Source: Acidobacteriota bacterium (lineage in GTDB: Bacteria > Acidobacteriota > UBA6911). From it: DNA of 64,000 bases. The notes under the pieces were generated by a model, which made no database searches, was not told the origin of the DNA, and was given only the letters and a program-made list of their open reading frames with translations. The DNA is taken from contig JAAYCX010000044.1 in assembly GCA_012729555.1 (NCBI GenBank), positions 1-64,000 on the forward strand, written 5' to 3'. The translations under genes were made by a program, and so were the position numbers. Shown piece by piece: positions 14,605 to 49,085 of this stretch; the stretch's first letter is position 1; each line of letters opens with the position of its first letter.

Positions 14605-14638
14605 GGTTTTCTCCTTGAATAGCGGTTGAAAATCCGGG

Positions 14639-23310: not shown

Positions 23311-25062
23311 TCAGGGAGCCGTGCATGTGTAGGAGGCCGCCGCGCCCTTCGGGCCGCCGACATATTTCGGGTAGGCCGGGTAGGAGCACATCGGGAGGCT
23401 CCGCTCCCCCGCACTTACGGTCACGGCCGCAGGCGGCGTCCCCTGCTCGACCCACCGGATCAGCAGATCGAAACGGCTGAAGCCGCTGGGAATCGGGGCC
23501 GGCTCGATCGGGCGGCCGTCGCCGTCCACCGAATGGGAGGTGCCGCTCAGCCCGTGCCCCGTCTGCGGGAGCACGAAAAAGCGGGCGAAGGCATCGACCT
23601 TCTCCCTCCCCATCGCGTCGATGACCGACTGGAAATAATCGAGCTGCGCGCCGGGGGACGCCAGGGTGTCATTGGTCCCGATGGCGACGATCATCTTCCC
23701 CCCGCGCCGGAGGAAGGGCTCCAGGTTCGGGTCGGTGGAGTCGAGCGCCAGGGAGAGTTCGCGCCTCCGGGCGTCGAGGCGCCCCCCCTCGACGTAATCG
23801 AGCGGGTTGGCACCGAGGTCCTGCATCAGGAACCCCGTCACGCCCAGGGTTCCGAGATGGTTGTGGGCCGGGGCGGTTTCGGGCGCCCCTTCCTGGCCGC
23901 GAAAGCGTCGGGCGGCTACGATGCCGCTGCTCGCGGCGTCGGTGTTCGGCACCCACATCCCGAAGGATTGGACGCCATGGGCCAGGGGGGTCGCGAAGCG
24001 GTAGGGGCTGTAGACGAACTCGAGCGTGGAGATCTGGCCGTCGGTCAGGCAGGCGGCGGCGCTCGTGTCCTCGGGGTTCGGGTCGACATTGTCGGGGCAG
24101 CGCTTCGCCTTCCATGGATCGCGGCCCGGCTCGCCCCGCCTGACGTCGAAGATCGCCCGGCAGGCCATGTAGTTGTTGATGACCCCGTCGGTGAGCCCGT
24201 CCAGCCCGTCGCACTGCCGCATGAATTCCGCCCGGATCGCGTTGGTCTTGGCCGGGGTCACCCAGCGGGCCAGGGGCTTTTCCTGGATCCGGATCAGGTC
24301 GGGGGCGAGCATGAGGGTGGTGAGGCTCACGATCGGGACGTTGGCCGCCACCCCGTCATAGTCCGCGGGGTAGCGCTGGGCCACGGTCAGCGCCTCGCGC
24401 CCCCCCTGGGAGGTGCCGAAGAAGTAGTTGTAGCGTGGTTTTTTCCCGTACATCCTTTCGATCAGCACCAGGGCGGCGTCGTGCGTCTTCTTGAGCTGCA
24501 TGTAGCCCAGGTTCCGGATCGCCTCGTCGTTGAGGGCCCAGTCGTCGCCCGAACCGGCTCCCGGCGCCGTCTTGCGGCCGAACCCGAAGCTCATCTGGTG
24601 CCCCGAATCGCTGCCATAGGTGGCGAACCCCCGCCCGATCAGGGAAGGTCCCGGCCCCATGTCCACCCCGCCCAGGAGGTTGGGGATCATGCCGTTCATC
24701 CCCCCGCCCCCGAGCTGGGCCGCACGGCCGCTCCAGGAGGCGGGCAGGACCACCTGGAAATGGATCGGCCTGGCGGTGGTTTCGGTGGAAACGGGGGCCA
24801 TCGACCCGTTCACGCTGCAGTAAGCCGGGCCGGTCCCGGCCGCCTCCTTCCAGACGGGAGGGTCGAGCGTCACGGCCGAGACCGGTTCGCCGATGGCCGA
24901 GACCGGGATGGCGGAGCCGAGCCTGGCCGCCGTGCAGTCCCCGCTGCTGATTTCCTTGCCCGCCCCGGAAGCCCCGGCCTGCGCCGGGCACGGGGACGCC
25001 CCGGCGAAAAGGCCCGCCAGGACCAGAACACATCCCGCCCCTCTGCTCATTGTCCCATTCAT
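23311..25062 (-). CDS. Secreted tannase/feruloyl esterase family protein (second copy)
   Basis: 583 residues with a signal peptide (GCVLVLAGLFAGASPCPAQAG). The nucleophile motif FFGTSQGGREAL has Thr-Ser where most tannases have Cys-Ser (the first copy has CSTGG), so the usual disulfide near the active site may be absent. GSDSGHQMSFG, EAIRNLGYMQLKKTHDAA and RYPADYDGVAANVP match the family, and VLPQTGHGLSG holds the likely catalytic His. It should hydrolyse phenolic or other bulky esters outside the cytoplasm. The AAAGGAG site favours the ATG at 25062. It is preceded 28 bp upstream by an alpha/beta hydrolase and followed by DUF3237. Confidence 0.86.
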   Translation of the reverse strand: MNGTMSRGAGCVLVLAGLFAGASPCPAQAGASGAGKEISSGDCTAARLGSAIPVSAIGEPVSAVTLDPPVWKEAAGTGPAYCSVNGSMAPVSTETTARPIHFQVVLPASWSGRAAQLGGGGMNGMIPNLLGGVDMGPGPSLIGRGFATYGSDSGHQMSFGFGRKTAPGAGSGDDWALNDEAIRNLGYMQLKKTHDAALVLIERMYGKKPRYNYFFGTSQGGREALTVAQRYPADYDGVAANVPIVSLTTLMLAPDLIRIQEKPLARWVTPAKTNAIRAEFMRQCDGLDGLTDGVINNYMACRAIFDVRRGEPGRDPWKAKRCPDNVDPNPEDTSAAACLTDGQISTLEFVYSPYRFATPLAHGVQSFGMWVPNTDAASSGIVAARRFRGQEGAPETAPAHNHLGTLGVTGFLMQDLGANPLDYVEGGRLDARRRELSLALDSTDPNLEPFLRRGGKMIVAIGTNDTLASPGAQLDYFQSVIDAMGREKVDAFARFFVLPQTGHGLSGTSHSVDGDGRPIEPAPIPSGFSRFDLLIRWVEQGTPPAAVTVSAGERSLPMCSYPAYPKYVGGPKGAAASYTCTAP

Positions 25063-25090
25063 CCGCACGTCTCCTTTTTCCTTCGCCATC

Positions 25091-28278: not shown

Positions 28279-29295
28279 CTAGCGGAACATCTCCTTGCTC
28301 ATCTTGTCGATTTCCCTGGAAATGGCGTCGTAGACCCCGTCGTAGACGGCGCCCTTGCCCCCCTGGGTGATGCAGGGAATGAAGTAATGCTTGCCGTTTT
28401 CCTCGCACGCCCTGCGTACGTGCCGCTCGACCAGCTCCTGGGTCCAGTCCTCACGGTCGACGAGACCGTTGTCGATGTCCCCCATGAAGGAGATCCTGCC
28501 GCCGTACTTCCTGATGAGGTCCGACACCTTGTTGGTCGTGACGCACCCCTGCCAGATGTCGATCTTCATCTCGATCATGTGGGGGACGAGGTTGGCGCTG
28601 TAGGCGTCGTTGTGATGCACGATGAGCTGGACCCCCCTCTCCTTGTAGTACCCGTACCACTTCTTGTACGGTTCCAGGAAGAACTCCTCGAACATGTCCG
28701 GGGAGAGGAAGGACGAACGGTGGCTGCCCCAGTCGTCGTGCTGAAGGATGACCTCCGGGGCGAAGTTGTCGCAGACCAGCTTGGCGTAACGGAGCTTCCA
28801 GTCGGTGACGTAGGCGATCAGTTCCTTCATCGCCTCCGGTTCCTCGTAGAAGGCGATCAGGCAGTCGTCCATCCCCATCAGGTAATGGAGCTGCTCGAAG
28901 ATCCCGGGCGCCCCGAACAGGGTGACGAACACTTCGTTCCTGTCGACGGCGTCGATCTGCGGCTTGAACTTGTCCCACTCCGACTGGGGGTAGTCCAGCC
29001 GCGGCGCCTTGACGACCTTCTCCCACTGGGTGATGTCCTTGAGCACCTTGTGGGCCTCGTCGTGCACCGGGAAGGCTCCCGGCACGTTGGCGGGCCAGGC
29101 CCGGGTGACGCCCCAGCCGTCCTTGACCGGCGGCTCCCCGCGCCCCACCCTGGGCGAGGCGGCCGCGATGGGGTCCCCCATGATCATGCCGAAGGGGGAA
29201 CCCGGATCGCAATCGAACGCCTCGTACTGGTTGACGAACCGGTCCGGGTTGCCGCCGCGGATGGTTTCCAGCAGATTCTGTCTCTTGGTCAGCAT
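28279..29295 (-). CDS. Uroporphyrinogen-decarboxylase-fold corrinoid methyltransferase (paralogue 1)
   Basis: 338 residues, start MLTKRQNLLETIRGGNPDRFVNQYEAF. The fold is the UroD/MtaA TIM barrel (COG0407-type), whose members in anaerobes move methyl groups to or from corrinoid proteins. It has QHDDWGSHRSSFLSP, then LIVHHNDAY where MtaA/MtbA enzymes have a zinc HxC motif, and FMGDIDNG. True HemE is unlikely because the cluster contains four paralogues and no other heme genes. It lies 26 bp after the corrinoid protein gene on the same strand and ends in a strong terminator. It probably either demethylates a substrate (MT1) or hands the methyl on (MT2); the direct link to the corrinoid gene favours MT1. 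Confidence 0.82.
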   Translation of the reverse strand: MLTKRQNLLETIRGGNPDRFVNQYEAFDCDPGSPFGMIMGDPIAAASPRVGRGEPPVKDGWGVTRAWPANVPGAFPVHDEAHKVLKDITQWEKVVKAPRLDYPQSEWDKFKPQIDAVDRNEVFVTLFGAPGIFEQLHYLMGMDDCLIAFYEEPEAMKELIAYVTDWKLRYAKLVCDNFAPEVILQHDDWGSHRSSFLSPDMFEEFFLEPYKKWYGYYKERGVQLIVHHNDAYSANLVPHMIEMKIDIWQGCVTTNKVSDLIRKYGGRISFMGDIDNGLVDREDWTQELVERHVRRACEENGKHYFIPCITQGGKGAVYDGVYDAISREIDKMSKEMFR

Positions 29296-29321
29296 GAAAC
29301 CCTTTCTCCGATGGGGGTGGG

Positions 29322-29954
29322 TTAGGCCGCGACGATCTCCTTCGCCTTTTCGGCGGCGGATCCGGCGTCGGGCGCGTAGGCGTCGGCCCCGATCTCCTCG
29401 GCGAACTTCGGGGTCACGGGCGCGCCGCCGACGATGATCTTGAAGCCCTGCAGGCCGCTCTCCCTGATGGCGTCCACCGTCTTCTTGAGCGCGGGCAGGG
29501 TCGTGGTCAGAAGCGCCGAACACGCCACCAGCTTCACGTTCTTGTTCCCCTTAATGGCTTCGATGAACTTGGCGGGCGCCTGGTCCACGCCGATGTCCAC
29601 CATGTCGAAACCGGCGCTGCCGATCATCATGTTGACGAGGTTCTTCCCGATGTCATGCAGGTCGCCTTCGACGGTACCGATGACGCAGGTGCCCAGGGAA
29701 GTCGACGCCTCGGAGCTCAGGAAGGGCTTCAGCACTTCCACGCCCTTGGCCATCGCCTTTGCCGCGATCAGCATCTCGGGCACGTAGATCTCGCCGGCCG
29801 AAAACCGGTCTCCCACCACCTTCATGCCGTCAATCATCGCCTGAAGGATGTCCTTCGCGGCGCTTCCCTCGTCCAGGGCTTCCTGGACCAGTCCGGGAAC
29901 TATCTTGGTCTTGCCGATGATTACCTGTTCTTTGACTTCGTCGATCTTGGCCAT
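29322..29954 (-). CDS. Corrinoid (B12-binding) protein of methyltransferase system
   Basis: 210 residues, the standard size for MtaC/MtbC/MttC-type proteins. Residues 1-85 are the helical cap domain; the cobalamin-binding Rossmann domain follows with GTVEGDLHDIGKNLV, where H100 is the lower cobalt ligand (DxHxxG), then CSALLTTTLPALK (SxL motif) and IIVGGAPVTPKFA (GG motif). It carries the methyl group between the substrate-specific methyltransferase and the acceptor enzyme. It is flanked by paralogue 1 (downstream) and the pterin-type methyltransferase (upstream), both on the same strand. It is the only corrinoid protein seen in the locus, although there are several methyltransferases. Confidence 0.94.
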   Translation of the reverse strand: MAKIDEVKEQVIIGKTKIVPGLVQEALDEGSAAKDILQAMIDGMKVVGDRFSAGEIYVPEMLIAAKAMAKGVEVLKPFLSSEASTSLGTCVIGTVEGDLHDIGKNLVNMMIGSAGFDMVDIGVDQAPAKFIEAIKGNKNVKLVACSALLTTTLPALKKTVDAIRESGLQGFKIIVGGAPVTPKFAEEIGADAYAPDAGSAAEKAKEIVAA

Positions 29955-30098
29955 GTCTTTTCACCTGATTTTCGTAATGTCCCGGCCGGGGGCCGGAGAG
30001 GTTGATTCCAGAAAAACCGTCCTTCCAATAATAGATCCAGCGGTATCGAAACAGCCGCGCGCATTATTTTCTAGCACGTCCTGCCCGAAGATGCTAAG

Positions 30099-30135
30099 AA
30101 AAACGGCCCGCCTTCGCCTCCCGGCTTCGGCGGGC
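30099..30135 (-). terminator. Candidate terminator after the pterin methyltransferase gene
   Basis: Minus-strand stem GCCCGCC/GGCGGGC with a 16-base interior, followed by CG and five T residues, just past the stop at 30145. It may be partial, letting some transcripts continue into the corrinoid gene and so setting their ratio. Confidence 0.55.
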
Positions 30136-30144
30136 ACGCCTGCC

Positions 30145-30966
30145 TCATTTCTTCGCCGGCGCCTGGGGCTGCGTGCCGAACACGCCTCTCCTGAACGCCT
30201 GGATGAACTCGATGCACATCTCGTCGCGCCCCAGGAGCGCTTCCGTCGCGTAGATGAGGCCCCGCAGGTCGCGGTTCAACGGGTCGAGGATCACGCTGTC
30301 CAGCCCCGCGTTCATGGCGAGGACGACAAAGGCCTGGTTCACGATCTTCCGCGCGGGGAGGTTGAACGAGATGTTGCTGGCCGCCCCCGTCACGTGGAGG
30401 GTGGGGTAGCGTCTCCGGATCTCCTTCATGACCTCGATGATCATGTTGACGCCGTCGTCCGAAGTCGCCAGCATTTCCACCAGCGGGTCGATGTGCAGCC
30501 GGGAAGGGTCGATGTTGTACTCCTTCGCCTTCTGCATCAGCGCTTCGAGCACCTCGAGGCGCTTCTCCGCCGAGCGCGGAATTCCCGTGTCGTCGCACAG
30601 GAGCGCGGCGCACTGCCAGTCGGTCCTGGCGATCTTGGGGAAGACCGTCGCGATCTTGTTCCCCTCCATCGACACGGAATTGACCAGCCCGGGTCTTTTG
30701 CAGAAATCGATCGCCTTCGCGCAGGTCTCGGCGCTCGGGCTGTCCACGGCGATGGGGGTGTCGGTCGCTTCCTGGACGATGTCGATCATCCATTTCAGGG
30801 TTTCCAGTTCCCGGGAAACCTCGACGGATGCGCATACGTCGATGAAATCGGCCCCCGCTTCGGACTGCACCTTGGCCAGGTTCCTGATGAAATCGGCGTC
30901 TCCGGCTTCAATCGCCTTGCCCACGGACGGAATCGATCCATTGATCTTTTCAGCAATTATTATCAT
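30145..30966 (-). CDS. Pterin-binding methyltransferase (methyltetrahydrofolate:corrinoid type)
   Basis: 273 residues with the dihydropteroate-synthase-like TIM barrel of AcsE/MtrH/MetH-pterin domains: AEKINGSIPSVGKAI, GADFIDVCASV, PIAVDSPSAETCAKAI, NSVSMEGNKIA and RLHIDPLVEMLATSDDG. The conserved Asp (VDSPS) and Asn (NSVS) residues contact the pterin in this family. It should transfer the methyl group from the corrinoid protein to tetrahydrofolate, or the reverse, making it the MT2-like partner of the locus. The GGAG site lies 9 bases before the ATG. It is followed by a candidate terminator and, after about 190 bp, by the corrinoid protein gene. Confidence 0.9.
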   Translation of the reverse strand: MIIIAEKINGSIPSVGKAIEAGDADFIRNLAKVQSEAGADFIDVCASVEVSRELETLKWMIDIVQEATDTPIAVDSPSAETCAKAIDFCKRPGLVNSVSMEGNKIATVFPKIARTDWQCAALLCDDTGIPRSAEKRLEVLEALMQKAKEYNIDPSRLHIDPLVEMLATSDDGVNMIIEVMKEIRRRYPTLHVTGAASNISFNLPARKIVNQAFVVLAMNAGLDSVILDPLNRDLRGLIYATEALLGRDEMCIEFIQAFRRGVFGTQPQAPAKK

Positions 30967-31176
30967 TGTGCGTCACTCCATTCCCAAATGATCCAGCCAT
31001 CACTGCCCCACACGTTGCGGGATGCGCCTCTCGCTGATGATGTCCCCCAGCGACCGCGGGGCCTGTGCGGCCCGGCTCCGCTCTGCGTACGCATTAAGTT
31101 GCCCTAGAGGAGGGGGTCAAGTCAAATGCGAACGCGGCCATGGACACCCTAAAGCCTCTAAAATAAAACGTTTATG
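30967..31176 (-). promoter_or_regulatory. Long untranslated leader (about 200 bases) of the pterin methyltransferase operon
   Basis: No convincing gene lies between the divergent methyltransferase and hydantoinase-like genes (353 bp). From the strong minus-strand promoter the leader would be about 200 bases. I see no cobalamin-riboswitch box, but the length and several GC-rich self-complementary pieces leave room for an RNA regulator. Confidence 0.4.
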
Positions 31177-31204
31177 ATTCTAATCCATTCGGCCCATAAG
31201 TCAA
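31177..31204 (-). promoter_or_regulatory. Strong sigma-70-type promoter towards the pterin methyltransferase
   Basis: Minus strand TTGACT (31204-31199), 16-base spacer, TAGAAT (31182-31177), embedded in an AT-rich patch. It is among the best consensus matches in the window. Confidence 0.6.
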
Positions 31205-31319
31205 CCCCATATGTCCGGCGGTCCGCCGCCGGCCCCGGGGCGCCTTCGAGCGGGCCGGATGGGCGTTGAAGCGCCCGCGAAAAGGTGTTAATACGTCCCT
31301 GGGCGGGGGGCGAAAACCT

Positions 31320-33335
31320 TTGAGCGACAGCGGCTTCATCAAAATCGGCCTCGGAGTGGATGCCGGCGGCACCTACACCGACGCCGTCATCTTCGACTTC
31401 GAGGCGGACCGGATCCTCTCCAAGGCCAAATCGCCGACCACGCGGTGGGATTTCACGGTGGGGATCGAAAGGGCGCTCCGGCAGCTCGACCCGCAGCGGT
31501 TGCGTGAGGTCGAGCTGGTGTCGCTCTCCACCACCCTGGCCACAAACGCCATCGTCGAAAACGAGGGGCAGAAGGTCGGCCTCCTCCTCATGCCCCCCTT
31601 CGGGCTGGATATCGCCCAGAACATACCCTGCCGGCCGCAGGCGGTCGTGGAGGGACAGCTGGACATCACGGGGAGGGAACTGGCGCCGGTCCGGGAGGAC
31701 GAGGTCCGGCAAGCGGCCCGCCGCATGGTGGAGCGGCACTCCGTGGCCGCCTTCGCCGTCTCCGGGTTCGCCGGTTCCATCAATCCCGAGCACGAACTCC
31801 GGGTCAAGAGCTGCCTCGAGGAGGAAACGGGCCTGTTCGTGTCGTGCGGCCACGAGCTTTCGGACACGCTCGATTTCCAGACACGGGCGGTCACGGCCTT
31901 CCTGAACGCGAGGATCATCCCGAGGATCGCCGGCCTGCTGCTCGACCTCGAAAGGGTGATGCGGCGGTACGGCATCGACGCCCCCGTGTTCGTGGTCAAG
32001 GGGGACGGCACCCTGATGAAGGCCGACCTGGCGAAACGGCGCCCCGTCGAGACGATCCTCTCGGGCCCCGCGGCCAGCGTGGCGGGCGCCCGGCACCTGA
32101 CCGGGCTGGAGGATGCGATCGTCGTCGACATGGGCGGAACGACGACCGACACGGCCGCCCTGGCGTCGGGCCGGGTCCGGCTCGACCGGGATGGTTCCCG
32201 CGTCGGGGGGCGCCGGACGCACGTCCAGGCGCTCGATATCCGCACGGTCGGTCTGGGGGGGGACAGCCTGATCCGGTTCGAGCGGATGCGGTTTCATATC
32301 GGCCCCCGGCGGGTGGCCCCGATCGCCTGGCTCGGCCGTCACTGGCCCGGCACCGAAGCCGCCCTCGATTACCTGACCCTCCGCCTGCGGCAGTACGGCG
32401 TTTCCACGGCGAAGATGGCGCTCCTGGTCAGGACCGGCGATGCCGGGTCGTTGCCCCTCACCCCCCTGGAGGAGAAGATCCTCCGGCAGCTCGAGCACCG
32501 GCCGCATTCGATGGAGGAGCTGCTGCACATCTTCGGCGCCGCCACCGAGGCCAGTCTGCACCTGCAGCGGCTCGAGGGTCGGGGCGTCCTTCAAAGGTGC
32601 GGCCTGACGCTCACCGACCTGCTTCATATCGACGGCCGGTACCTGGAATGGGACGCCGAGACCGCCCGGCGCTACGCCGGCTTCTACACGCCCCTCTGCC
32701 GCATGCCCCTCGACGCGATGGCGGCCCACGTCCTCGCCCTGGCGGCGCGGCAGCTGTCCCTGGAACTGCTCAAGCGGGGCCTGGATGACGACACCGAGCC
32801 GGACAGGATGGAGGGGTGCCCCGTCTGCCGGACCCTGGTCCGCCATCTCCTGGAGGAGCAGCACCCGAATTACGAAGTGGCGATCCGCCTCCGGCACCCG
32901 GTCGTCGGCATAGGGGCGCCGATCCGGTTCTTCCTGCCGCAGGCCATCGTCCCCCTCCAGACCAGGTCCGTCATACCGGAAAACGCCGACGTGGCCAACG
33001 CCATCGGCGCGATCACGAGCCAGGTGCACATACGGAAAGGGCTCTGGATCGTCCCCGGCGACAACGGCGATTTCATCGTGGAAGGCGTTTCCGGCGTGCG
33101 CCGGTTCGGCAATCTCGAAGACGCGGACCGGTTCGTCAGGGAGGAACTGACGGCCATCGTCCGCCGGAAGGCGGGAGAAGCCGGGACCGGCATCCGGGAC
33201 GTCGCCTTCGAAACCGAGGACAGCGTCCCCCGGGCGGCCAGCGGGGAGGCGGTCTTTCTCAGGCGCACCATATCCGCGAGCCTCGAGGGGCGCCCCGACC
33301 CGGGCTCCCGGCCGGAACGGGACGGCGCTGAATAG
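31320..33335 (+). CDS. Hydantoinase-A-like ASKHA protein with inserted winged helix, in corrinoid locus
   Basis: About 671 residues. The N-terminal half is a hydantoinase/oxoprolinase ASKHA domain: IGLGVDAGGTYTDAVIFD (phosphate 1), LSTTLATNAIVE, AVSGFAGSINPEHE, and IVVDMGGTTTDTAAL (phosphate 2). Around residues 385-450 lies a winged-helix-like segment (LTPLEEKILRQLEHRPHSMEELLHIFG) and near 500 a CPVC pair. The C-terminal part has VGIGAPIRFFLPQAIVP. In this setting it is more likely an ATP-dependent activator or repair factor for the corrinoid/methyltransferase system than an amidohydrolase. It is divergent from the pterin methyltransferase. Start is uncertain: TTG 31320 is used; an in-frame TTG at 31266 is the alternative. 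Confidence 0.75.
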   Translation: MSDSGFIKIGLGVDAGGTYTDAVIFDFEADRILSKAKSPTTRWDFTVGIERALRQLDPQRLREVELVSLSTTLATNAIVENEGQKVGLLLMPPFGLDIAQNIPCRPQAVVEGQLDITGRELAPVREDEVRQAARRMVERHSVAAFAVSGFAGSINPEHELRVKSCLEEETGLFVSCGHELSDTLDFQTRAVTAFLNARIIPRIAGLLLDLERVMRRYGIDAPVFVVKGDGTLMKADLAKRRPVETILSGPAASVAGARHLTGLEDAIVVDMGGTTTDTAALASGRVRLDRDGSRVGGRRTHVQALDIRTVGLGGDSLIRFERMRFHIGPRRVAPIAWLGRHWPGTEAALDYLTLRLRQYGVSTAKMALLVRTGDAGSLPLTPLEEKILRQLEHRPHSMEELLHIFGAATEASLHLQRLEGRGVLQRCGLTLTDLLHIDGRYLEWDAETARRYAGFYTPLCRMPLDAMAAHVLALAARQLSLELLKRGLDDDTEPDRMEGCPVCRTLVRHLLEEQHPNYEVAIRLRHPVVGIGAPIRFFLPQAIVPLQTRSVIPENADVANAIGAITSQVHIRKGLWIVPGDNGDFIVEGVSGVRRFGNLEDADRFVREELTAIVRRKAGEAGTGIRDVAFETEDSVPRAASGEAVFLRRTISASLEGRPDPGSRPERDGAE

Positions 33336-33377
33336 GAGCCGGCCGCGGCCCGGGGAGGCCGCGCGGGAAGTTATGGC

Positions 33378-33405
33378 TTGTGATGCGGCCGTATCCTCCT
33401 ATAAA
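33378..33405 (+). promoter_or_regulatory. Promoter before methyltransferase paralogue 2
   Basis: TTGTGA (33378-33383), 16-base spacer, TATAAA (33400-33405), giving a leader of about 115 bases to the ATG at 33527. It shows the gene can be expressed separately from the upstream ASKHA gene. Confidence 0.5.
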
Positions 33406-33526
33406 GTGGATGCGGGCGGCCCGGGCGTCGGGACGGCGCCCCGGTTGATGACGGGCATGAGGCCGCGGCGGCCATGATTTCAGGGATTCCCAATACCAAC
33501 ACCGATGAATCAGGAGACTTTCGATC

Positions 33527-34528
33527 ATGAATCTAAAAGAGATGTTCCTATCCGCCTTGCGGAATGAGAAGCCCATAAAATGGATGGGGTACGGGTTCGA
33601 GGCTTTTCCGAAGATCAAGTTCCACTGCGTCATGGACCCCATATCCATATGGGACATCCTCCAGTTCACGGGGGAGGCGGCCATTGACAACTGGGGCGGG
33701 ACCCTTCGTTTCCTCCCCGGCGACCCCGGGTGGATCCCGATCGTCAACGACCAGAACAAGGTCATCAAGGACGTCACCAAATGGCGCGACTACGTCAAGT
33801 TCCCCGCCATCCCGGACCTGGACTGGAGCGACGCCAAGAAGACGATTGAAGGGATCGACAGGGAAACCACCCTGGTCATGGTCCCCAGCTTCCGCGGCCT
33901 GTTCGAGCGCGCCCACTGCCTGATGCCGTTCGAAGAGGTGCTCGTCAACATGTACGAGGAGCCCGAGTCGATGTACGAGTTCTTCGACGCGTACGCCGAC
34001 TGGAAGCTCCAGGTCTTCGAGCAGCTCATCGACATCCTCGAGCCCGACATCCTGCACAGCCATGACGACTGGGGCTCCAAGACCTCCCTCTTCTTCTCCC
34101 CGCAGAAGTTCCGCGATCTGCTGAAGCCTCACTACCAGCGCCTGTACGACTACGTCAAGAAGCGCGGGGTGCTGGTCCAGCATCATTCCGACTGCTATAT
34201 CCAGGGGATCGAGAAGGACATGGTCGACCTGGGGATCGATATGTGGCAGGGGGCCCTCCCCTCCAACGACCTCCTCGCGATCCGGGAGAACACCCAGGGG
34301 AAGATGCTGATGCTGGGAGGCATCGACCAGGGGGTGATCGACCGGGCGGACGCGACCGAGGACGAGATCCGCGGCGAGGTCCGCAGGGCCATCGACACCT
34401 ACGCCGCCGGCGGGGCGTTCCTCCCCTGCATCGGGAGCCTCGAGTGCATCAACGAGTGGGTGACCCCGGTCGTCATCGATGAATGCAACCGCTACGGCGC
34501 GGAGTGGCTCAAAAAGCAGCAGGCCTAA
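33527..34528 (+). CDS. Uroporphyrinogen-decarboxylase-fold corrinoid methyltransferase (paralogue 2)
   Basis: 333 residues starting MNLKEMFLSALRNEKPIKWMGYGFEAF. Like paralogues 1 and 3 it has SHDDWGSKTSLFFSP and a VQHHSDCY segment at the position of the zinc-binding HxC in MtaA-type enzymes, and LGGIDQGVIDR. The overall barrel is of UroD/MtaA type. It has more internal Trp and Cys than the others and diverges in its first 90 residues, suggesting a different substrate. It is followed at 81 bp by the RACo-like reactivator gene. Role: methyl transfer from a methylated substrate to the corrinoid protein is likely but not provable from sequence. Confidence 0.8.
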   Translation: MNLKEMFLSALRNEKPIKWMGYGFEAFPKIKFHCVMDPISIWDILQFTGEAAIDNWGGTLRFLPGDPGWIPIVNDQNKVIKDVTKWRDYVKFPAIPDLDWSDAKKTIEGIDRETTLVMVPSFRGLFERAHCLMPFEEVLVNMYEEPESMYEFFDAYADWKLQVFEQLIDILEPDILHSHDDWGSKTSLFFSPQKFRDLLKPHYQRLYDYVKKRGVLVQHHSDCYIQGIEKDMVDLGIDMWQGALPSNDLLAIRENTQGKMLMLGGIDQGVIDRADATEDEIRGEVRRAIDTYAAGGAFLPCIGSLECINEWVTPVVIDECNRYGAEWLKKQQA

Positions 34529-34544
34529 GCCGTAACCAGGCCTT

Positions 34545-34566
34545 CCCCGGGCCGGCCGGCCCGGGG
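34545..34566. repeat. 22-base perfect GC palindrome between methyltransferase 2 and RACo-like gene
   Basis: CCCCGGGCCGG followed by its exact complement. It can fold as a very stable hairpin 17 bases past the methyltransferase stop. No T-run follows on the plus strand, so it may be an mRNA-stabilising or attenuating hairpin rather than a full terminator. Confidence 0.55.
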
Positions 34567-34609
34567 GGGCTTTCGGGACTCCGGGCCCCGGCGTGCAAGG
34601 GGGGATTCC

Positions 34610-36415
34610 TTGGCTAAAGTCGAATTCATGCCGGTGGGGAGGCGCGGCACCTGTCCCGAGGGGACATCGCTCCTGGAGTGCGCGCGGCTGCTCGACGTGG
34701 ACCTGGTCGGCCTTTGCGGCGGGGTCGGGGTGTGCCGGCGCTGCCGGGTCCAGGTCGTCGCCGGGGCCGTTTCGGACCCGACGGAAGAGGACCGGGACGC
34801 CTTCGCGAAGGAGGAACTCGGCCAGGGGCACCGCCTCGCCTGCATGACCTACCCCCTGGGTGACGTCCGGGTGCACGTGCCGCCGGAGTCGCTGTCGGCC
34901 CCCCAGCGCACGCAGGTGGAGGGGCTCGAGGTGCTGGTCCGGCCGGACCCCCTGGCACGCGCCTTCGATGTCCGGCTGGCCCCTCCCTCGCTGGGACGCC
35001 CGGTGCCGGACGACCGGAACCTGTGGGACCTCCTCCGGCGCGACCACGGCCTGGCCCCGGGAACCATCGATCTCGCCGTGCAGCAGGTGCTTTCCACCCG
35101 GCTGCGCGAACTGGGGTTCGAGGCGAGCGTCGTGGTGCGGGAAGGGGAGGTCATCGCCGTCGACGCCCCGGCGACCCGCTGGATCGGCCTGGCCGTCGAT
35201 ATCGGCACGACCAAGATCGCGGTCTACCTGGTGGACATGCAGAGCGGCGTCGTCGCCGCCTCCGCGGGGCTGATGAATCCGCAGATATCCTACGGCGAGG
35301 ATATCATCTCCCGCATCCATCACGCGGGCGAATCCGCGGAAAACGCCGCGAAAATGCAGGCCCTGCTCGTCGACGCCCTCAACGGCAGCGTCGCCTCCCT
35401 GTGCGCGGAGATCGGCGCCGATCCGGCCCGCATCGTCGACGTGGTCCTGGTCGCCAATACCGCCGTACACCACCTCTTTCTGCGCCTGCCGGTGCGGCAG
35501 CTGGGCCTGGTCCCTTACGTGCCGGGCATCGGCGGCGCCGAGGACCTCAAGGCCCGGGAAATCGGCCTGAAAACGGCACCGGGAGCCTGGGTCCACATGC
35601 TGCCGAACATCGCGGGCTATGTGGGCGCGGATCACGTGGCGATGCTGCTGGCTACCGGGGTGAACCGGAGGGAGGGGGTGACGCTGGCCATCGACATCGG
35701 CACCAACACCGAAATCTGCCTGAATCGGGGCGGCAGGATGAAGAGCGTGTCGTGCGCCTCGGGGCCGGCGTTCGAAGGCGCCCAGATCCGGTTCGGCATG
35801 CGGGCGGCGGCGGGGGCGATCGAGCACGTGCGCCTCGACGGGGGTCTCCCCGAAATCCAGACGATCGGGGGGGGCACCCCGGTCGGCATCTGCGGCTCGG
35901 GCCTGCTCGACGCCGTCGCGCAGATGCTCCAGGGCGGCGTGATCGACTCCACGGGCCGGATGCTGGACCATCCGCTCGTGCGCCGGCGCGGCGGTGTGCG
36001 GGAATTCGTCCTGGCCGAGCGTCCGGGACAGGAGGCCGTCACCGTATCCCAGAAGGACGTCCGGGCGCTGCAAGCGGCCAAGACCGCCATCCGCCTCGGC
36101 ATCCAGGCGCTGGTGGAGGACGCGGGGATCGAGGAGGGGGAAATCGACCGGGTGATCATCGCCGGGGCGTTCGGCACCTACATCGACGTGGAGAGCGCCA
36201 TCGCCATCGGCATGCTCCCGGCGCTCCCCCTCGGCCGTTTCGAGCAGGTGGGGAACGCGGCGGGGACCGGGGCGCGCCTGGCGCTGGTTTCGCGCGAGAA
36301 GCGCCGGGAGGCGCTGGAGATCGCGGGGGCGGACGGGTATCTCGAACTGGCCCGCATCCCCGATTTCAACGAGAAATTCGCCGCGGCCACCCCGATGGGC
36401 GCAGCCGTTTCATGA
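34610..36415 (+). CDS. RACo-like ATP-dependent reductive activator of corrinoid protein (2Fe-2S + ASKHA)
   Basis: 601 residues. An N-terminal plant-type [2Fe-2S] ferredoxin domain has C36, C42, C45 and C78 (CGGVGVCRRC ... RLACMTY). A linker follows to about 185, then the ASKHA ATPase domain: WIGLAVDIGTTKIAVYLVD, NPQISYGEDIISRI, LAIDIGTNTEI, CASGPAFEGAQI and IIAGAFGTYIDVES. This is the layout of RACo/RamA-related DUF4445 proteins that reduce inactive Co(II) corrinoid to Co(I) at the cost of ATP. TTG start with GGGG upstream. Its end overlaps the convergent UroD-like gene by 6 bp. It serves the corrinoid protein of this locus. Confidence 0.93.
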   Translation: MAKVEFMPVGRRGTCPEGTSLLECARLLDVDLVGLCGGVGVCRRCRVQVVAGAVSDPTEEDRDAFAKEELGQGHRLACMTYPLGDVRVHVPPESLSAPQRTQVEGLEVLVRPDPLARAFDVRLAPPSLGRPVPDDRNLWDLLRRDHGLAPGTIDLAVQQVLSTRLRELGFEASVVVREGEVIAVDAPATRWIGLAVDIGTTKIAVYLVDMQSGVVAASAGLMNPQISYGEDIISRIHHAGESAENAAKMQALLVDALNGSVASLCAEIGADPARIVDVVLVANTAVHHLFLRLPVRQLGLVPYVPGIGGAEDLKAREIGLKTAPGAWVHMLPNIAGYVGADHVAMLLATGVNRREGVTLAIDIGTNTEICLNRGGRMKSVSCASGPAFEGAQIRFGMRAAAGAIEHVRLDGGLPEIQTIGGGTPVGICGSGLLDAVAQMLQGGVIDSTGRMLDHPLVRRRGGVREFVLAERPGQEAVTVSQKDVRALQAAKTAIRLGIQALVEDAGIEEGEIDRVIIAGAFGTYIDVESAIAIGMLPALPLGRFEQVGNAAGTGARLALVSREKRREALEIAGADGYLELARIPDFNEKFAAATPMGAAVS

Positions 36416-37477
36416 ATTCAGGGCGTCGGCGATCTCCCTGAGGCGGTCCCATTCCGCATCGACCGGGACATGATCCGCCACCCCCACGATCGTCCGGCCG
36501 TCGCCCCGTGCGAACTCCCGGGCCCCGGCGATCGACTCCCGCAGCAGCGAGCGGTCCACCATCGGCATGACGTAGTCCTGGGGGATGCCGCCCCACAGGA
36601 TCATGCCCGGGCCCGTCGCCTGCCTCGCCTCGGCAAGGGTCGCGTCGCTCTGGGGCGGTCCCGCCACCCCCGCCACTCCGTCGACGCCGGAATCGGCCAT
36701 GGGTCCAAGCAGGTGCCGGCACATCCCCCCGATATGCACCCACAGCCGACCGCCGCTTTGGCGCAGCAGTTCGCCGGTGTCGAGGTAACTGGCCCGGAGG
36801 TGCCTGGCGAAGGCGGCCGGGGTGACGAATTGCCCGTCGAGGTTGTCCGGCGCCCAGAAGAGGGAAGCGGGGAAGCCGGAAGCCAGCTCCCGGACCAGTC
36901 CGTTCCTTTTCTCCTCCATGACCCCGAGCAGCGCCGTGAGCCGCTCCTCCTCCGTCATCATCAGCATCAGCCCGTCGCTCCATCCCAGCAGGGTGTGGAG
37001 CAGGTCGGAGTAGGGGGTCCTGGGGACCCCGATGACGTCGACCCCCCCGGGATCCGCGGCCCCGGGCGCTGCGGACGGTTCCAGCCGGTACCGCATCGCC
37101 GCGACGATCTCCTCCGCCGCGTCCAGGTCCTCCTCGTCCTTGACCGGGTATTCCTTCTGCCACCAGTCGCCGTCGGGACCCAGGGCCCATTTTTCGGTCA
37201 GAACCCCTGAGCGCGTGCGGTAGCGGACGACCCGCTCGGTCGCGGACTTTTCGCGCGTCACCTCGACCCCCTCGAATTCGAGCCGCCAGGGGGACCGGAC
37301 GGTCCACGCCGGGCAGTTCAGGGCGGCGGCCGCTTCGGCCGCGGTCTCCCCGCACCCTTCCGGCAGCGTCCCCCGGCGGCTGTGCCAGGCGAACCACAAG
37401 CCCAGGTCGGGCATGAACAGGGGGCGGGCCGGGGCTTCCCCGCCGACCGCGTCCATCAGGATTCTCCTGAAGTCCAT
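36410..37477 (-). CDS. Uroporphyrinogen-decarboxylase-fold protein (divergent paralogue 4)
   Basis: 355 residues starting MDFRRILMDAVGGEAPARP. It shares the UroD-type barrel but not the HDDWGS and HHxD motifs of the other three; here LFWAPDNLDGQFVTP and LWVHIGGMCRHLLGPM occupy those places, the latter closer to the HIxG loop of MtaA-type MT2 enzymes. WGGIPQDYVMP ends the barrel. It may be the second-step methyltransferase or act on an unrelated methyl donor. It overlaps the convergent RACo-like gene by 6 bp and is preceded by the arylamine N-acetyltransferase on the same strand at 32 bp. Confidence 0.75.
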   Translation of the reverse strand: MDFRRILMDAVGGEAPARPLFMPDLGLWFAWHSRRGTLPEGCGETAAEAAAALNCPAWTVRSPWRLEFEGVEVTREKSATERVVRYRTRSGVLTEKWALGPDGDWWQKEYPVKDEEDLDAAEEIVAAMRYRLEPSAAPGAADPGGVDVIGVPRTPYSDLLHTLLGWSDGLMLMMTEEERLTALLGVMEEKRNGLVRELASGFPASLFWAPDNLDGQFVTPAAFARHLRASYLDTGELLRQSGGRLWVHIGGMCRHLLGPMADSGVDGVAGVAGPPQSDATLAEARQATGPGMILWGGIPQDYVMPMVDRSLLRESIAGAREFARGDGRTIVGVADHVPVDAEWDRLREIADALNS

Positions 37478-37509
37478 CTCTGTTTCCTCCGAAGGGCGCG
37501 GGACCGCCG

Positions 37510-38292
37510 CTACCGCCGGATCCGCTCCGGGTCCAGGCCGAAATGCTCCCGCGCCAGGGCGTTGAATTCCGATTCATCCGCGAGCGTTTTTTCGATAACC
37601 TCGCCGCCCTTCACGACCTTGAAGCGGCCGTCGGTGAGCGTGACCCTCCCGTCCCGGGTAGGCCGGGTGCACATGCGCATCGTCAGGAAAAAGGAGCCGG
37701 GGAAGGTGGCGGTGAAATGGTTCGCCATCAGGAAATCGTCCGGGAGGCATTCCTCGAGGGTGAAGGCGTAGAGCGGGTGGAATCGGTCCCCCTCCCTCTT
37801 CTGGAGCAGGTGGCCAAGGGGGGTATGGTTCGTGAGGCGGTAGGTGTGCGAGAACTGCCGCTGTTCCGTCCGCTCCTCCAGAAGCAGCGGGGCGAGGATG
37901 CCGTCGTTGCCGAAGCCCACGTCCGCCAGGTACCGCCGGCCCCCCGCCTCCACCAGGATCACCTGGTGGGTCCGGGTCGTGCATCGTCCGTCGTCGAGGA
38001 TCACCCGCGCCAGCAGGTCCCTGACCCGGAACCCCATCTTCCGCAGGACGAGGGAAAAGAGGCCGTTCATCTCGAAGCAGTACCCCCCCCGCCGCTCCCC
38101 CACCAGTTTCCTGAAAAGGGAGGCCTCGTCCAGCAGGACGGGTCTGCCGTAGAACACGTCCAGGTTTTCGAAGGGTACGCCGAGGGTGTGGGCGAGGTGG
38201 AGCTCCCGGAGGGTGTCCTCCCCGGCATCCGTGCCTCCGCGGTATTGCACCCGTTCGAAATAGGCGTCGAGGTCTAAAAGCGCGTCGCTCAT
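37510..38292 (-). CDS. nat: Arylamine N-acetyltransferase
   Basis: 260 residues with the complete Cys-His-Asp triad of the family: C72 in ERRGGYCFEMNGLF, H109 in TTRTHQVILVE and D124 in YLADVGFG. The N-terminal helical region PFENLDVFYGRPV is also characteristic. It transfers an acetyl (or other acyl) group from CoA to an aromatic amine or hydrazine in the cytoplasm. The position inside the corrinoid locus, cotranscribed with UroD-fold paralogue 4, is unusual and may point to an aromatic-amine substrate pathway, or be coincidental. Confidence 0.92.
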   Translation of the reverse strand: MSDALLDLDAYFERVQYRGGTDAGEDTLRELHLAHTLGVPFENLDVFYGRPVLLDEASLFRKLVGERRGGYCFEMNGLFSLVLRKMGFRVRDLLARVILDDGRCTTRTHQVILVEAGGRRYLADVGFGNDGILAPLLLEERTEQRQFSHTYRLTNHTPLGHLLQKREGDRFHPLYAFTLEECLPDDFLMANHFTATFPGSFFLTMRMCTRPTRDGRVTLTDGRFKVVKGGEVIEKTLADESEFNALAREHFGLDPERIRR

Positions 38293-38482
38293 CCAGATAC
38301 TCCTTACCCGTCCAAATCCACATCATTACCATACCAGAGACGCCGTCTCATTTTTTTGGAAAAAGGGGTACTCTTTTCCGCCGTTTTTCCTTACAGTGAT
38401 GCCACCGGAACCGGGACAGGCTCCGGTGTCCGGCGGATGGCCTTTCGGGGATCAACGGTACCTTATCGAGGGGGAGAATCGG

Positions 38483-39490
38483 ATGCTCACGAAAAGACAG
38501 AATATGGTGGAGACCATGAAGGGCGGTCGCCCTGACCGCTTCGTCAAGGGCTACGAGGCGCTCGCGCTGGTGATGACGCCCTTCGCCCTGAGCAACGTGC
38601 GCCCCGTCAAGGGCGCCCCTCCCCTGAAGAACCGATGGGGCGTGACTACCTGCTTCCCGGCCAACGCGCCCGGGCCCTTCCCGGTGCACGACGCGGAGCA
38701 TATCGTCATCAAGGACATCGAACACTGGCGCGACTGCGTCACGGTCCCCGATCCCGTCATGCCCGAGGAGGCCTGGGAGGAGACGATCCGGCAGGTCGAG
38801 GCGATCGACCGCAGCGAGTATTTCGTGGCCCCCTTCGTCGCCCCCGGGGTGTTCGAACAGAGCCATTACCTCCTGGAGATCACCAACTGCCTGACCGCCT
38901 TCTACACCAACCCCGACGAGCTGCACGAGATCTACGACATGATCACCGAGTTCGAGCTCCGGCTGGCCGAGGATATCTGCCGGCGCATCCGGCCGGACGC
39001 CCTGTTCCATCACGACGACTGGGGGAGCCAGAAATCCTCCTTCATCTCCCCCGCCATGTTCGAGGAGTTCCTCCTCCCCTGCTACAAGCGGATCTACGGC
39101 TATTACAAGGCCCACGGCGTCGAGTGCATCGTCCACCACTCCGACTCCTACGGGGAAAACCTCGTCCCCTACATGGTGGAGATGGGGATGGACGTCTGGC
39201 AGGGGGCGATGTCGACCAACAACATCCCGAAGATCCTCGCCGAGCACGGCGGGAAGCTGACCCTCATGGGCGGCATCGACAACGGCAAGGTCGACCGCGA
39301 GGACTGGACGCGCGAGCTGATCCACGAGGAGACCTTCCGCGCCTGCCGGGAGTACGGCACCAAGTACTACATCCCCTGCACCACGATGGGGGACCCCGCC
39401 AGCATCTACCCCGGCGTCTACGAGGCCGTTATGGAGGAGATCGACAACGCCTCGGCGGAGATGTTCCCGTCCGGGGCGGCGGGGGCGTAG
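38483..39490 (+). CDS. Uroporphyrinogen-decarboxylase-fold corrinoid methyltransferase (paralogue 3)
   Basis: 335 residues, start MLTKRQNMVETMKGGRPDRFVKGYEAL, nearly the same opening as paralogue 1. It keeps HHDDWGSQKSSFISP, CIVHHSDSYGENLVPYM and LMGGIDNGKVDREDWT, so 1 and 3 are clearly duplicates. GGGGAG lies 6 bases before the ATG, which excludes the earlier in-frame ATG. The gene is divergent from the N-acetyltransferase and followed at 11 bp by the DUF2284 gene, making a two-gene operon. Function by family: methyl transfer involving the corrinoid protein; substrate unknown and probably related to, but distinct from, that of paralogue 1. Confidence 0.82.
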   Translation: MLTKRQNMVETMKGGRPDRFVKGYEALALVMTPFALSNVRPVKGAPPLKNRWGVTTCFPANAPGPFPVHDAEHIVIKDIEHWRDCVTVPDPVMPEEAWEETIRQVEAIDRSEYFVAPFVAPGVFEQSHYLLEITNCLTAFYTNPDELHEIYDMITEFELRLAEDICRRIRPDALFHHDDWGSQKSSFISPAMFEEFLLPCYKRIYGYYKAHGVECIVHHSDSYGENLVPYMVEMGMDVWQGAMSTNNIPKILAEHGGKLTLMGGIDNGKVDREDWTRELIHEETFRACREYGTKYYIPCTTMGDPASIYPGVYEAVMEEIDNASAEMFPSGAAGA

Positions 39491-39501
39491 CGGTCCGCGC
39501 C

Positions 39502-40032
39502 ATGGAGAGATGGGTCCGAAAGGCTCTGGAAGCCGGTTTCGACGAGGCGGGCGAGCTCGACTGCGCCCTCCTCGTCGCGCGGCCCGAAGTCCGGGATGCC
39601 TGCCGCGCGAACAGCTGCCGGCGTTACGGCACCAGCTGGTCCTGCCCCCCCGGGTGCGGCACGCTCGAGGAGTGCGCCGCCCGCCTCCGCCGCTATTCGA
39701 AGGGGCTGATCGTCCAGACGGTCGGGCGGCTGGAGGACGAGTTCGACGGCGAGGGGATGATGGCCGCGGCCGAGCGCCACGCGGAGACCTTCCGCCGCCT
39801 GACCGCCGAACTGCGGCGGGAGTTCCCCGGGATGCTGCCCATGGGGACCGGGAGCTGCTCCCGCTGCGACAGCTGCACCTACCCCGACGCCCCCTGCCGC
39901 GACCCGTTCGGGGCGAGCCCCCCCATGGAGGCGTACGGAATCCTGGTCGCCGACGCCTGCCGCTCGAGCGGCATCCCCTACTACCACGGCAAGGGGACCA
40001 TCACCTACACCGCCTGTTTTCTGCTCCGGTAG
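39502..40032 (+). CDS. DUF2284 Cys-rich putative metal-binding protein
   Basis: 176 residues with many cysteines in conserved blocks: ACRANSCRRYGTSWSCPPGCGTLEECAAR near the N-terminus and GSCSRCDSCTYPDAPCRDP in the middle, the DUF2284 pattern. The C-terminus PYYHGKGTITYTACFLLR is also typical. The family is thought to bind metal or iron-sulfur clusters and is often found next to corrinoid methyltransferases. Here it follows paralogue 3 by 11 bp and so is probably cotranscribed and works with it. The ATG lacks a strong ribosome site, consistent with coupling. Confidence 0.83.
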   Translation: MERWVRKALEAGFDEAGELDCALLVARPEVRDACRANSCRRYGTSWSCPPGCGTLEECAARLRRYSKGLIVQTVGRLEDEFDGEGMMAAAERHAETFRRLTAELRREFPGMLPMGTGSCSRCDSCTYPDAPCRDPFGASPPMEAYGILVADACRSSGIPYYHGKGTITYTACFLLR

Positions 40033-40221: not shown

Positions 40222-41007
40222 ATGGTATCAAAAAATACGTCATTGTCCCGAAAGGACAGCCAATTGCTCGAGCAGGTGGTCGTGAAGCACGGGCAGATAG
40301 CCGATACCAGCCAGCTGGACGAAATATTCCAAAGCGCATACTCGCGCAAAAGCGACCGGAATCGGCGCATCTCTCTGCTGGCGAAGGCCGGATGGCTCGT
40401 CCGGATTCGGCGAGGTCTGTACCAGATCGTCACGGATATGACCGCCCGAGGCATGGGGAACGTATCCAACCTGGTGATCTCCCAAGCGCTCAACCGCCGT
40501 TCTTACGTCTCGTTCGCCAACGCGTTGAATTGGCACGGCATGTTCGATCAGCTCACAAAAACCGTGGACTCCGTCACAACCGCCAGACCTCGGAGCTACC
40601 GGTTCCAGTCCACCGAGTTCCGGTTTCTGAAAGTGGAGGAAGATCTTTTCTTCGGCTTTTCCGGGCAGCGGGTGGACGGAAAGATCGTGAACATCGGTGA
40701 GATCGAAAAAGTGATCCTGGATTATCTGTTTTTAAGGCGGAACGCCGCGACCGTCAGTCTGGTTGTCGAAAAGCTCAGGGAATATCGGGACAAATTCGAT
40801 TTTGCCCGGATGACGAAATACGCGATGGCATACAGCATCACGGTCCAACGCAATCTGGGATTCCTGCTGGATGCCGTGGGTGTTTCGAGCGACGCCCTGT
40901 ATCAAGCGGCGAGCGACAATCGAAAGGGATTCACCAAAATGCATCCCGGCGCCAAAACCTTCAACTCGCGATGGCGGTTGTACTATGACCCTGGAGTTAT
41001 TGAGTAA
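40222..41007 (+). CDS. abiEi: AbiEi-type antitoxin (type IV toxin-antitoxin system)
   Basis: 261 residues. The N-terminal region (LLEQVVVKHGQIADTSQLDEIF then RRISLLAKAGWLVRIRRGLYQIV) is the winged helix-turn-helix of AbiEi antitoxins, which represses its own promoter; the C-terminal domain (about 85-260) is the antitoxin/regulatory domain with SYVSFANALNWHGM and NIGEIEKVILDYLFL. It counteracts the AbiEii nucleotidyltransferase without direct binding in characterised systems. Base composition is clearly lower in GC than neighbouring genes, indicating recent acquisition. Its 3' end overlaps the toxin gene by 23 bp. No ribosome site; the promoter places the message start at the ATG. Confidence 0.88.
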   Translation: MVSKNTSLSRKDSQLLEQVVVKHGQIADTSQLDEIFQSAYSRKSDRNRRISLLAKAGWLVRIRRGLYQIVTDMTARGMGNVSNLVISQALNRRSYVSFANALNWHGMFDQLTKTVDSVTTARPRSYRFQSTEFRFLKVEEDLFFGFSGQRVDGKIVNIGEIEKVILDYLFLRRNAATVSLVVEKLREYRDKFDFARMTKYAMAYSITVQRNLGFLLDAVGVSSDALYQAASDNRKGFTKMHPGAKTFNSRWRLYYDPGVIE

Positions 41008-41764
41008 GGCGCAACTTCAAATCATCAATCGCGGCGGCCTTCAATACCCGCTCGACGCGGCCGAGAAGGATTACGTGCTCGCGCTGGTCGTAAAGATTCT
41101 TTACGAATCCGGGCTCAAGGCGAAGCTGGTGTTCAAGGGCGGGACCGCCCTTTACCACACCTATCTTCCTCAATTGCGCTTTTCCGAGGACCTGGATTTC
41201 ACCGCCCTTATTCCGGTCACCCTGGAAGAACTCGAAGAAGTCCTCGTTGCCCATGATTTCCTGGAACTCAAAGAGCACAATGTTTCGGACCATACAGTCA
41301 AGATCAACCGGTTGAAATACGCCGGCCCGTTGGGGCAGCCCAATTCACTGAAGATTGAAGTCGATGTCACCCAAAATGTCGTGTTGCCCGCCTGCGAGAA
41401 GGAATACCGGAATCATTATGGAGTTCAGGCGGCCGTACGCGTCATGGATCTGCGAGAAATCCTTGCGGAGAAGATCCGAGCCGCAAGTGGCCGGGCCAGG
41501 TATCGCGATTTCTACGATATCGCCATGATCCTCGACGGCTTTGCGATGAATATCGGCGAGGTCCTCGACCTTGTTCGCCGGAAGGAAATCCGGAAACCGG
41601 TCTCGCATGGATCGATGCTGAGGAATTGGAAAATAGCGCGGCAGGAGAAGGACGGGAGATCGGACCAGATAGTCTATTCCAGGGATGTCTCTGAAAAGGA
41701 GATCCTGGCCGCCATGGCGGCGATAGGATGTTTTTCGATTGGGGGCCGAGCGGGAGGTATATAG
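40985..41764 (+). CDS. abiEii: AbiEii-type nucleotidyltransferase toxin
   Basis: 259 residues. LVFKGGTALYHTYLPQLRFSEDLDFTALI contains the two nucleotidyltransferase motifs, GG(T) and the metal-binding D-L-D, as in the AbiEii/MenT toxins that add nucleotides to RNA acceptors. LKIEVDVTQNVVLPA supplies the third acidic residue and ILAEKIRAASGRARYRDFYDIAMI is the typical C-terminal signature (RD.YDI). The system gives abortive infection against phage and can stabilise mobile DNA. It overlaps the antitoxin by 23 bp, so translation is coupled. The island sits between GC-rich metabolic genes. Confidence 0.9.
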   Translation: MTLELLSKAQLQIINRGGLQYPLDAAEKDYVLALVVKILYESGLKAKLVFKGGTALYHTYLPQLRFSEDLDFTALIPVTLEELEEVLVAHDFLELKEHNVSDHTVKINRLKYAGPLGQPNSLKIEVDVTQNVVLPACEKEYRNHYGVQAAVRVMDLREILAEKIRAASGRARYRDFYDIAMILDGFAMNIGEVLDLVRRKEIRKPVSHGSMLRNWKIARQEKDGRSDQIVYSRDVSEKEILAAMAAIGCFSIGGRAGGI

Positions 41765-48792: not shown

Positions 48793-49085
48793 ACAAGATC
48801 GAAGCCCGGATCGGGGGCGGGGGTGACCCGGGGCCCGGCAATCCGGCAGGCCACTCATTTTGCTGACTTCCGCGCCGCTTTTCAAGTCCAAATCGCGCCG
48901 GGCGCGGGGCCCGGTGTCGCCCCCGCCTGTAGCGTTCGCCCGACGCGGGGCGTAATGAAAGCCGAAAGGCGGGCATGACCCGCGATCACACTGAAATTGC
49001 CGATCGCCGGACCGGGCGGACGGGGCGGGAGCAGGGCCGGAGGGCCGTCGCCGTGTGGCGCCCGGGACGGGCCAGGGGGGGGAGC

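Follow-up and report, generated by a model that had tools for sequence, protein, structure and literature searches.

A putative corrinoid-dependent O-demethylase locus of an Acidobacteriota bacterium in which several UroD-fold methyltransferases lie with one corrinoid protein

Introduction

The O-demethylases of acetogens (Odm/Vdm of Acetobacterium dehalogenans, Mtv of Moorella and Dhaf of Desulfitobacterium hafniense) consist of a substrate methyltransferase (MT I) of the UroD superfamily, a small corrinoid protein, a pterin-type methyltransferase (MT II) and an activator of the RACo type. In this study we analyzed a stretch of 64,000 nt, hereafter the window, of contig JAAYCX010000044.1 from an Acidobacteriota bacterium (assembly GCA_012729555.1). 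A multi-methyltransferase locus at positions 28279-40032 of the window encodes the same classes of protein. Unlike the acetogen systems, it places at least three MT I lineages with one corrinoid protein, it includes the activator gene, and its host has no acetyl-CoA synthase. We think that this locus probably encodes a corrinoid-dependent O-demethylase in which several substrate modules share one carrier; the reactions, the substrates and the sharing are what we infer from the sequences.

The preliminary description of the locus had stated that each methyltransferase of characterised systems is paired with its own carrier. This is only partly true. The corrinoid protein MtqC of Eubacterium limosum was shown biochemically to be methylated by MtpB, MtcB and MtyB, with one MT II and one activase (PMC8604678). 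Several substrate enzymes per corrinoid protein is the point of likeness to our locus, for which the evidence consists of co-location and a genome-wide excess of such enzymes. The MT I enzymes around MtqC, in contrast, belong to the MttB superfamily, act on quaternary amines and are encoded by dispersed genes, whereas the enzymes called U1-U3 below are of the UroD type. In Methermicoccus shengliensis, MtoB1 and MtoB2 are encoded in one operon with one MtoC, one pterin methyltransferase (MtoA) and one activator (MtoD) (PMC8630106). The gene content is alike in that two MT I genes occur with one of each other component, but MtoB is a 47-48 kDa protein of the MtvB type, nearer in size to a UroD-fold enzyme on another contig of our genome (C32) than to U1-U3, and the methyl acceptor is tetrahydromethanopterin.

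One of the six O-demethylase systems of Eubacterium callanderi is said to have two MT I enzymes (PMC12915777), as against three or more here. D. hafniense DCB-2 instead carries some 20 homologues of odmA (PMC3306737). Clusters of type 1 mlp genes hold two or three UroD-superfamily genes, one corrinoid protein gene, one activase gene and no tetrahydrofolate methyltransferase gene (PMC10418091), and resemble our locus in the first three respects. In glycine betaine clusters a hydantoinase-A-like (HydA) gene lies beside those for the corrinoid protein, MT II and RACE (PMC9768040). Our locus has a neighbor of this kind, but the MT I of those clusters acts on glycine betaine.

Genes of the locus

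Families were assigned by Pfam and NCBIfam searches, by sequence and fold comparisons with the PDB, and with AlphaFold and hhalign. The locus contains the following ten genes (positions in the window).

U1: 28279-29295, minus strand; UroD-fold MT I, encoded at the end of the MT II-COR1-U1 operon (PF01208, 56 bits)
COR1: 29322-29954, minus strand; corrinoid protein with cap and Rossmann domains (PF02310, 78 bits; PF02607, 61 bits)
PTE: 30145-30966, minus strand; MT II, methyl-corrinoid protein:tetrahydrofolate methyltransferase (NF005719, 331 bits; PDB 4o0q, 308 bits)
HYD: 31320-33335, plus strand; hydantoinase-A-like ASKHA protein (PF05378 and PF01968, E 3e-33; PF13941 MutL, 3e-9)
U2: 33527-34528, plus strand; UroD-fold MT I of its own lineage (PF01208, 39 bits)
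RACo: 34610-36415, plus strand; ATP-dependent reductive activator of corrinoid protein (PF14574, 258 bits; PF17651, PF17650, Fer2)
U4: 36410-37477, minus strand; divergent UroD-fold protein (no Pfam match; hhalign to the U family)
NAT: 37510-38292, minus strand; arylamine N-acetyltransferase (PF00797, 223 bits)
U3: 38483-39490, plus strand; UroD-fold MT I (PF01208, 48 bits)
DUF2284: 39502-40032, plus strand; predicted metal-binding protein, downstream of U3 (PF10050, 158 bits)

All ten genes are open and in frame, and all except U4 have Pfam/NCBIfam support; the gene inventory of the preliminary description was thus borne out. The true ATG of U1 is at 29295, versus 29523 from the open reading frame caller, and HYD probably starts with a TTG at 31320 or 31266.

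The four components that define an O-demethylase are all found here, namely a UroD-type MT I, a corrinoid protein with a cap domain, a Rossmann domain and a DxHxxG motif, a pterin-type MT II, and an activator of the RACo/AE type. The cobalt ligand of COR1 is His-100, within the cobalamin motif D98-x-H100-x-x-G103. The earlier statement that there is one B12 protein holds for the locus, although not for the genome, which has a second such protein, COR2, on contig C32. COR1 is 64-71% identical to proteins of Desulfosporosinus and Acetobacterium (best, 71%, in Desulfosporosinus) and is of the same protein class as 4jgi. PTE is close to its best PDB match, 4o0q, which is the D. hafniense enzyme, and lies above the NCBIfam cut-off for methyl-tetrahydrofolate:corrinoid methyltransferases. 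The entries 4O1E/4O1F, which have the same sequence as 4o0q, serve as the MT II template in PMC13222342. RACo carries all RACo domains, and its best PDB match is the solved RACo 3zyy (343 bits). A second RACo-type activator gene of the genome (L113 7795-9657, contig C81) directly follows apparent trpF, trpB and trpA genes.

The genes form four groups on both strands: PTE-COR1-U1 (minus), HYD-U2-RACo (plus), NAT-U4 (minus) and U3-DUF2284 (plus). Non-coding blocks upstream of HYD/PTE, U2 and U3 are conserved across species, which suggests separate promoters and separate induction of the groups. A search of Rfam for a cobalamin riboswitch gave none, the sole match at the gathering threshold being a tRNA. 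DUF2284 genes often lie beside related corrinoid genes; the literature that we found gives no function for the family.

We rejected the classification of the locus as a type 1 mlp cluster. The tetrahydrofolate methyltransferase gene PTE lies within it, whereas such clusters have none within 20 kb; its gene groups run on both strands, whereas their core genes are co-directional; and the U enzymes do not have the His-Cys-Cys zinc site.

Directly after DUF2284 lies an AbiEi/AbiEii-like type IV toxin-antitoxin pair (40222-41764) with lower GC content at third codon positions. It looks like a recent insertion, because G007, another species of the genus, lacks the pair and has about 210 bp between DUF2284 and the gene that follows. 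Further downstream are two molybdopterin subunits of the xanthine dehydrogenase/aldehyde oxidase family (43367-45721 and 48975-51548), the former of which stays adjacent to the locus in G007 and in a further species, G011.

Conservation of the locus in the genus

COR1 orthologues with 91-97% identity are present in G006, G007, G011 and G012, and all four genomes also carry U1, U2, U3, U4, HYD, RACo and PTE. That is, five species of the genus, our own included, have retained the set with a single COR1. Since the gene set recurs in this way, its co-occurrence is more than chance. The set is spread over two contigs in G011; in G006 the gene order differs and U3-DUF2284 is on a separate contig; NAT was not found in the locus of G012. 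HYD adjoins U2-RACo in all five species. The identity to orthologues is 84-98% for U1-U3 and 87-99% for PTE, whereas U4 (61-92% in the genus), NAT and HYD are less conserved than these proteins and COR1.

U1 is adjacent to COR1 in G006, G007, G011 and G012. U3 orthologues occur in 5 of 38 genomes of the class that were searched; these are exactly the five with COR1, and the other 33 have none. In G006, the genes for PTE, COR1, U1, a UroD-fold enzyme resembling the orphan U5 described below (U5'), NAT and U4 form a co-directional run with gaps of at most 136 bp. This run is the best single evidence for one carrier serving more than one MT I.

The UroD-fold methyltransferases

The preliminary description had regarded U1, U2 and U3 as closely related. 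This is not so: U1 and U3 are 49% identical, and U2 is 32% identical to each of them. In the tree, all three are separate lineages of an MT I clade of acetogens; U1, U3 and the orphan U5 each group with Bacillota relatives of their own, and U2 forms its own clade. Recent duplication as the origin of U1-U3 is ruled out by the tree. Only 8 of 396 genomes of the phylum, in 2 of 210 genera, have a match to U2 (E 1e-40 or better). These separate relatives, together with the rarity of U2, suggest that the U enzymes were acquired laterally and assembled rather than duplicated in place.

The clade of U1, U2, U3 and U5 includes many MT I proteins of Acetobacterium, and many of those of A. dehalogenans are encoded beside corrinoid and/or MT II genes; OdmB and VdmB are not identifiable by name among them. 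The AlphaFold model of U1 (predicted local distance difference test score, pLDDT, 96.5) has the UroD fold, and the best PDB folds are UroD and MtaA of Methanosarcina mazei (4ay7). A profile search of the PDB with an alignment of U1-U5 gave no relevant entry.

Among 93 homologues, 70 form the core clade, U1, U2, U3 and U5 included; every one of these has E134, H186-D187-D188-W189-G190, H227-H228 and D230, whereas all 23 divergent homologues have Cys at position 230. That is, the core clade has H-x-D where the divergent homologues have H-x-C at the predicted metal site. A candidate zinc motif, E-X14-E-X20-H, was dropped in favor of this H-x-D/H-x-C column; it occurs in 25 of 94 homologues, among them the orphan U5 and no enzyme of the locus, and the alignment shows no conservation at its last two positions. 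At L046, from a Clostridiales genome, a single corrinoid gene is accompanied by three UroD genes whose motif is H-x-C; this may be a further multi-enzyme arrangement, for different substrates.

The fourth enzyme, U4, is indeed divergent, as had been described. Its AlphaFold model (pLDDT 41.7) was not used; profile-profile comparison with the U family by hhalign (98%, E 2e-13) instead indicated the UroD fold, with the alignment extending over the catalytic core. U4 keeps the equivalents of D187 and H228, and D188 is replaced by Asn.

One carrier or two

A PF02607 search of our genome, which is 98.9% complete, found COR1 and COR2 and no third corrinoid protein with a cap domain. Its pterin proteins are two of the MT II type and one match like dihydropteroate synthase. 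COR2 (L099 1530-2168) belongs to a second module on contig C32, in which the second MT II gene (PTE2) and COR2 have an adjacent UroD gene of 446 amino acids. Three orphan relatives of this UroD enzyme form with it a separate group related to CdmB. Another orphan, U5 on contig C10, is about 40% identical to U1-U3 and has no corrinoid gene within about 8.8 kb on either side, and further UroD-like genes lie on contigs C75, C92 and C97. The UroD-fold enzymes, not all of which need be corrinoid enzymes, clearly outnumber the two carriers. Beside U5 there is an AbiEii/AbiEi-like pair (L105 7282-8732) that echoes the one at the main locus; its smaller gene matches the AbiEi of the window weakly.

If COR1 is shared, the system may work as follows. 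RACo would reduce COR1 to Co(I), spending ATP. U1 and U3 would each transfer a methyl group to COR1 from a different aryl methyl ether of the ferulate, vanillate or syringate type, and U2 and U5 would probably do likewise, each from an aryl methyl ether of its own. PTE would then hand the methyl group from COR1 to tetrahydrofolate.

Several observations weigh against such sharing, at least in a strict form. A sixth species of the genus, G014, has its U2 orthologue (71% identity) directly downstream of PTE2-COR2, with DUF2284 after it; the COR2 and PTE2 of G014 are 85% and 74% identical to ours. In our genome, G011 and G006, the position after COR2 is occupied by the 446-amino-acid UroD gene, and in G007 no UroD gene follows COR2. 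From this difference it appears that carriers and MT I enzymes have changed partners, and from the position in G014 that U2 may use COR2, also or instead of COR1. Furthermore, in G013 and G014 a COR1-like gene (61-62% identity) sits with a U1-like gene alone. By this arrangement, U1 would be the old partner of COR1, and the sharing by U2 and U3 is read from co-location. Most related MT I genes of Acetobacterium, moreover, adjoin a carrier gene. In A. dehalogenans (19 matches) and A. wieringae (16), most MT I genes of the core clade lie next to a corrinoid and/or MT II gene, and some, including the closest U1 relatives L253 and L269, stand alone. In addition, U4, NAT and HYD, which evolve faster, may have no functional part in the system. 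Taken together, the sequences make U1-COR1 the secure pair, U3-COR1 a likely one and U2-COR1 a possible one.

The preliminary description had proposed that several enzymes feed one carrier, and that this would fail if other corrinoid genes accompanied the second and third of them. For U2 such a gene was found, the COR2 of G014; U3, among the 38 genomes of the class, occurs only with COR1. The proposal is partly supported, by the single COR1 kept with U1-U3 in five species, by the confinement of U3, by the run in G006 and by the shortage of carriers, but its exclusivity is weakened by G014. Outside the genus, 5 of 80 named corrinoid loci combine one corrinoid gene with two or three genes of the U family; gut Lachnospiraceae account for three of the five, which have NAT-like genes, and two of these three also have RACo and DUF2284.

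It could be argued that COR1 serves U1 and U3 and that COR2 serves U2 and the UroD enzymes of about 440 amino acids, the locus on C44 being a cluster of convenience. The operon of G014 would agree with this, as would the separate, CdmB-related group of the C32 enzyme and its orphan relatives, and G007, where the partner of COR2 must be elsewhere because no UroD gene follows it. However, in five species the neighbors of U2 are HYD and RACo, at the COR1 locus or on its continuation contig, and COR2 has DxHxxA rather than DxHxxG, so that it may or may not work like COR1. We therefore regard this division between two carriers as rather unlikely. Sharing of COR1 might, on the other hand, extend further. 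It is possible, and we suggest it only tentatively, that U1, U2, U3, U5 and perhaps U4, independently derived, all feed one carrier and that some also feed the second. In such an interchangeable network of MT I enzymes and carriers, a bacterium without acetyl-CoA synthase would gain new substrates by acquiring only an MT I gene.

Substrates and fate of the methyl group

The following genes of the window bear on the substrates.

Tannase/feruloyl-esterase family protein: 23311-25089, minus strand (PF07519, 295 bits); in G011 this flank is conserved up to 23311
Second tannase/feruloyl-esterase family protein: 13060-14766, minus strand (PF07519, 349 bits)
Alpha-L-arabinofuranosidase, plant cell-wall context: 14639-16210, minus strand (PF06964, 169 bits)

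Where the Cys of the metal site is replaced by a carboxylate, the substrate is reported to be an O-methyl and not an S-methyl compound (PMC10418091). By this rule, the H-x-D of the core clade, as against the H-x-C of the divergent homologues, points to O-methyl substrates for U1, U2, U3 and U5. From this motif and from the two tannase/feruloyl-esterase genes and the arabinofuranosidase gene, methoxylated aromatics seem the likeliest substrates, and vanillate and syringate are plausible ones. The methyltransferases for methylamines and betaines, including the MT I of glycine betaine clusters, which is of the MttB superfamily, belong to the MttB/MtmB/MtbB family and not to UroD; betaine and methylamines are therefore not favored.

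That each enzyme takes a different non-aromatic methyl donor, such as betaines, methylamines, halomethanes or thioethers, seems improbable to us. The UroD superfamily does include chloromethane enzymes (CdmB, CmuA) and thiol enzymes (PMC13222342, PMC10418091). However, the metal-site motif, the family of the methylamine and betaine enzymes, and the feruloyl-esterase and arabinan-type neighborhood all argue against it; moreover, CdmB resembles the C32 enzyme (104 bits), whereas the PDB search with the U1-U5 profile yielded no related entry. It is very improbable that at least one UroD-fold enzyme works in the reverse direction, using methyl-COR1 to methylate a thiol or other acceptor as MtaA-type enzymes do, so that the cluster would not be a catabolic hub: weak NCBIfam similarity to MtaA/CmuA, the fold match to 4ay7 and the divergent, untyped U4 would fit, but a dedicated tetrahydrofolate MT II is present, the His-Cys-Cys site was not found, and most relatives in the clade lie in MT I-corrinoid or MT I-corrinoid-MT II gene groups.

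In the favored O-demethylase, the methyl group would arrive at tetrahydrofolate. No match to CdhC, the acetyl-CoA synthase, was found in our genome, and MetF, MetV and Fhs are present. The methyl-tetrahydrofolate is thus most likely oxidized or used in biosynthesis rather than for acetate. At L101 (8781-11511), a further UroD-fold gene has MetF and a MetV-like gene as neighbors, and a protein of the FlpD/ferredoxin type is encoded close by; this group is possibly a link between a methyltransferase and the oxidation of methyl-tetrahydrofolate.

Significance

The components of this locus, their roles and the sharing of a carrier are already known in related systems, and the locus is no new kind of machine. 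Its contribution is a case that spans a genus, comprises three to five lineages of MT I and shows a change of partners. The genus is a natural test set, because U2 accompanies COR1 in five of its species but COR2 in the sixth. Should one carrier serve several MT I lineages, the substrate range would grow by gains of single genes, and its limits would be set by carrier recognition rather than by operon structure. Our findings also extend an MT I clade that is here mainly of Bacillota to a bacterium that is not an acetogen, in which esterase genes for plant cell walls lie close to the locus, and bear on the demethylation of methoxylated plant aromatics outside acetogens and methanogens.

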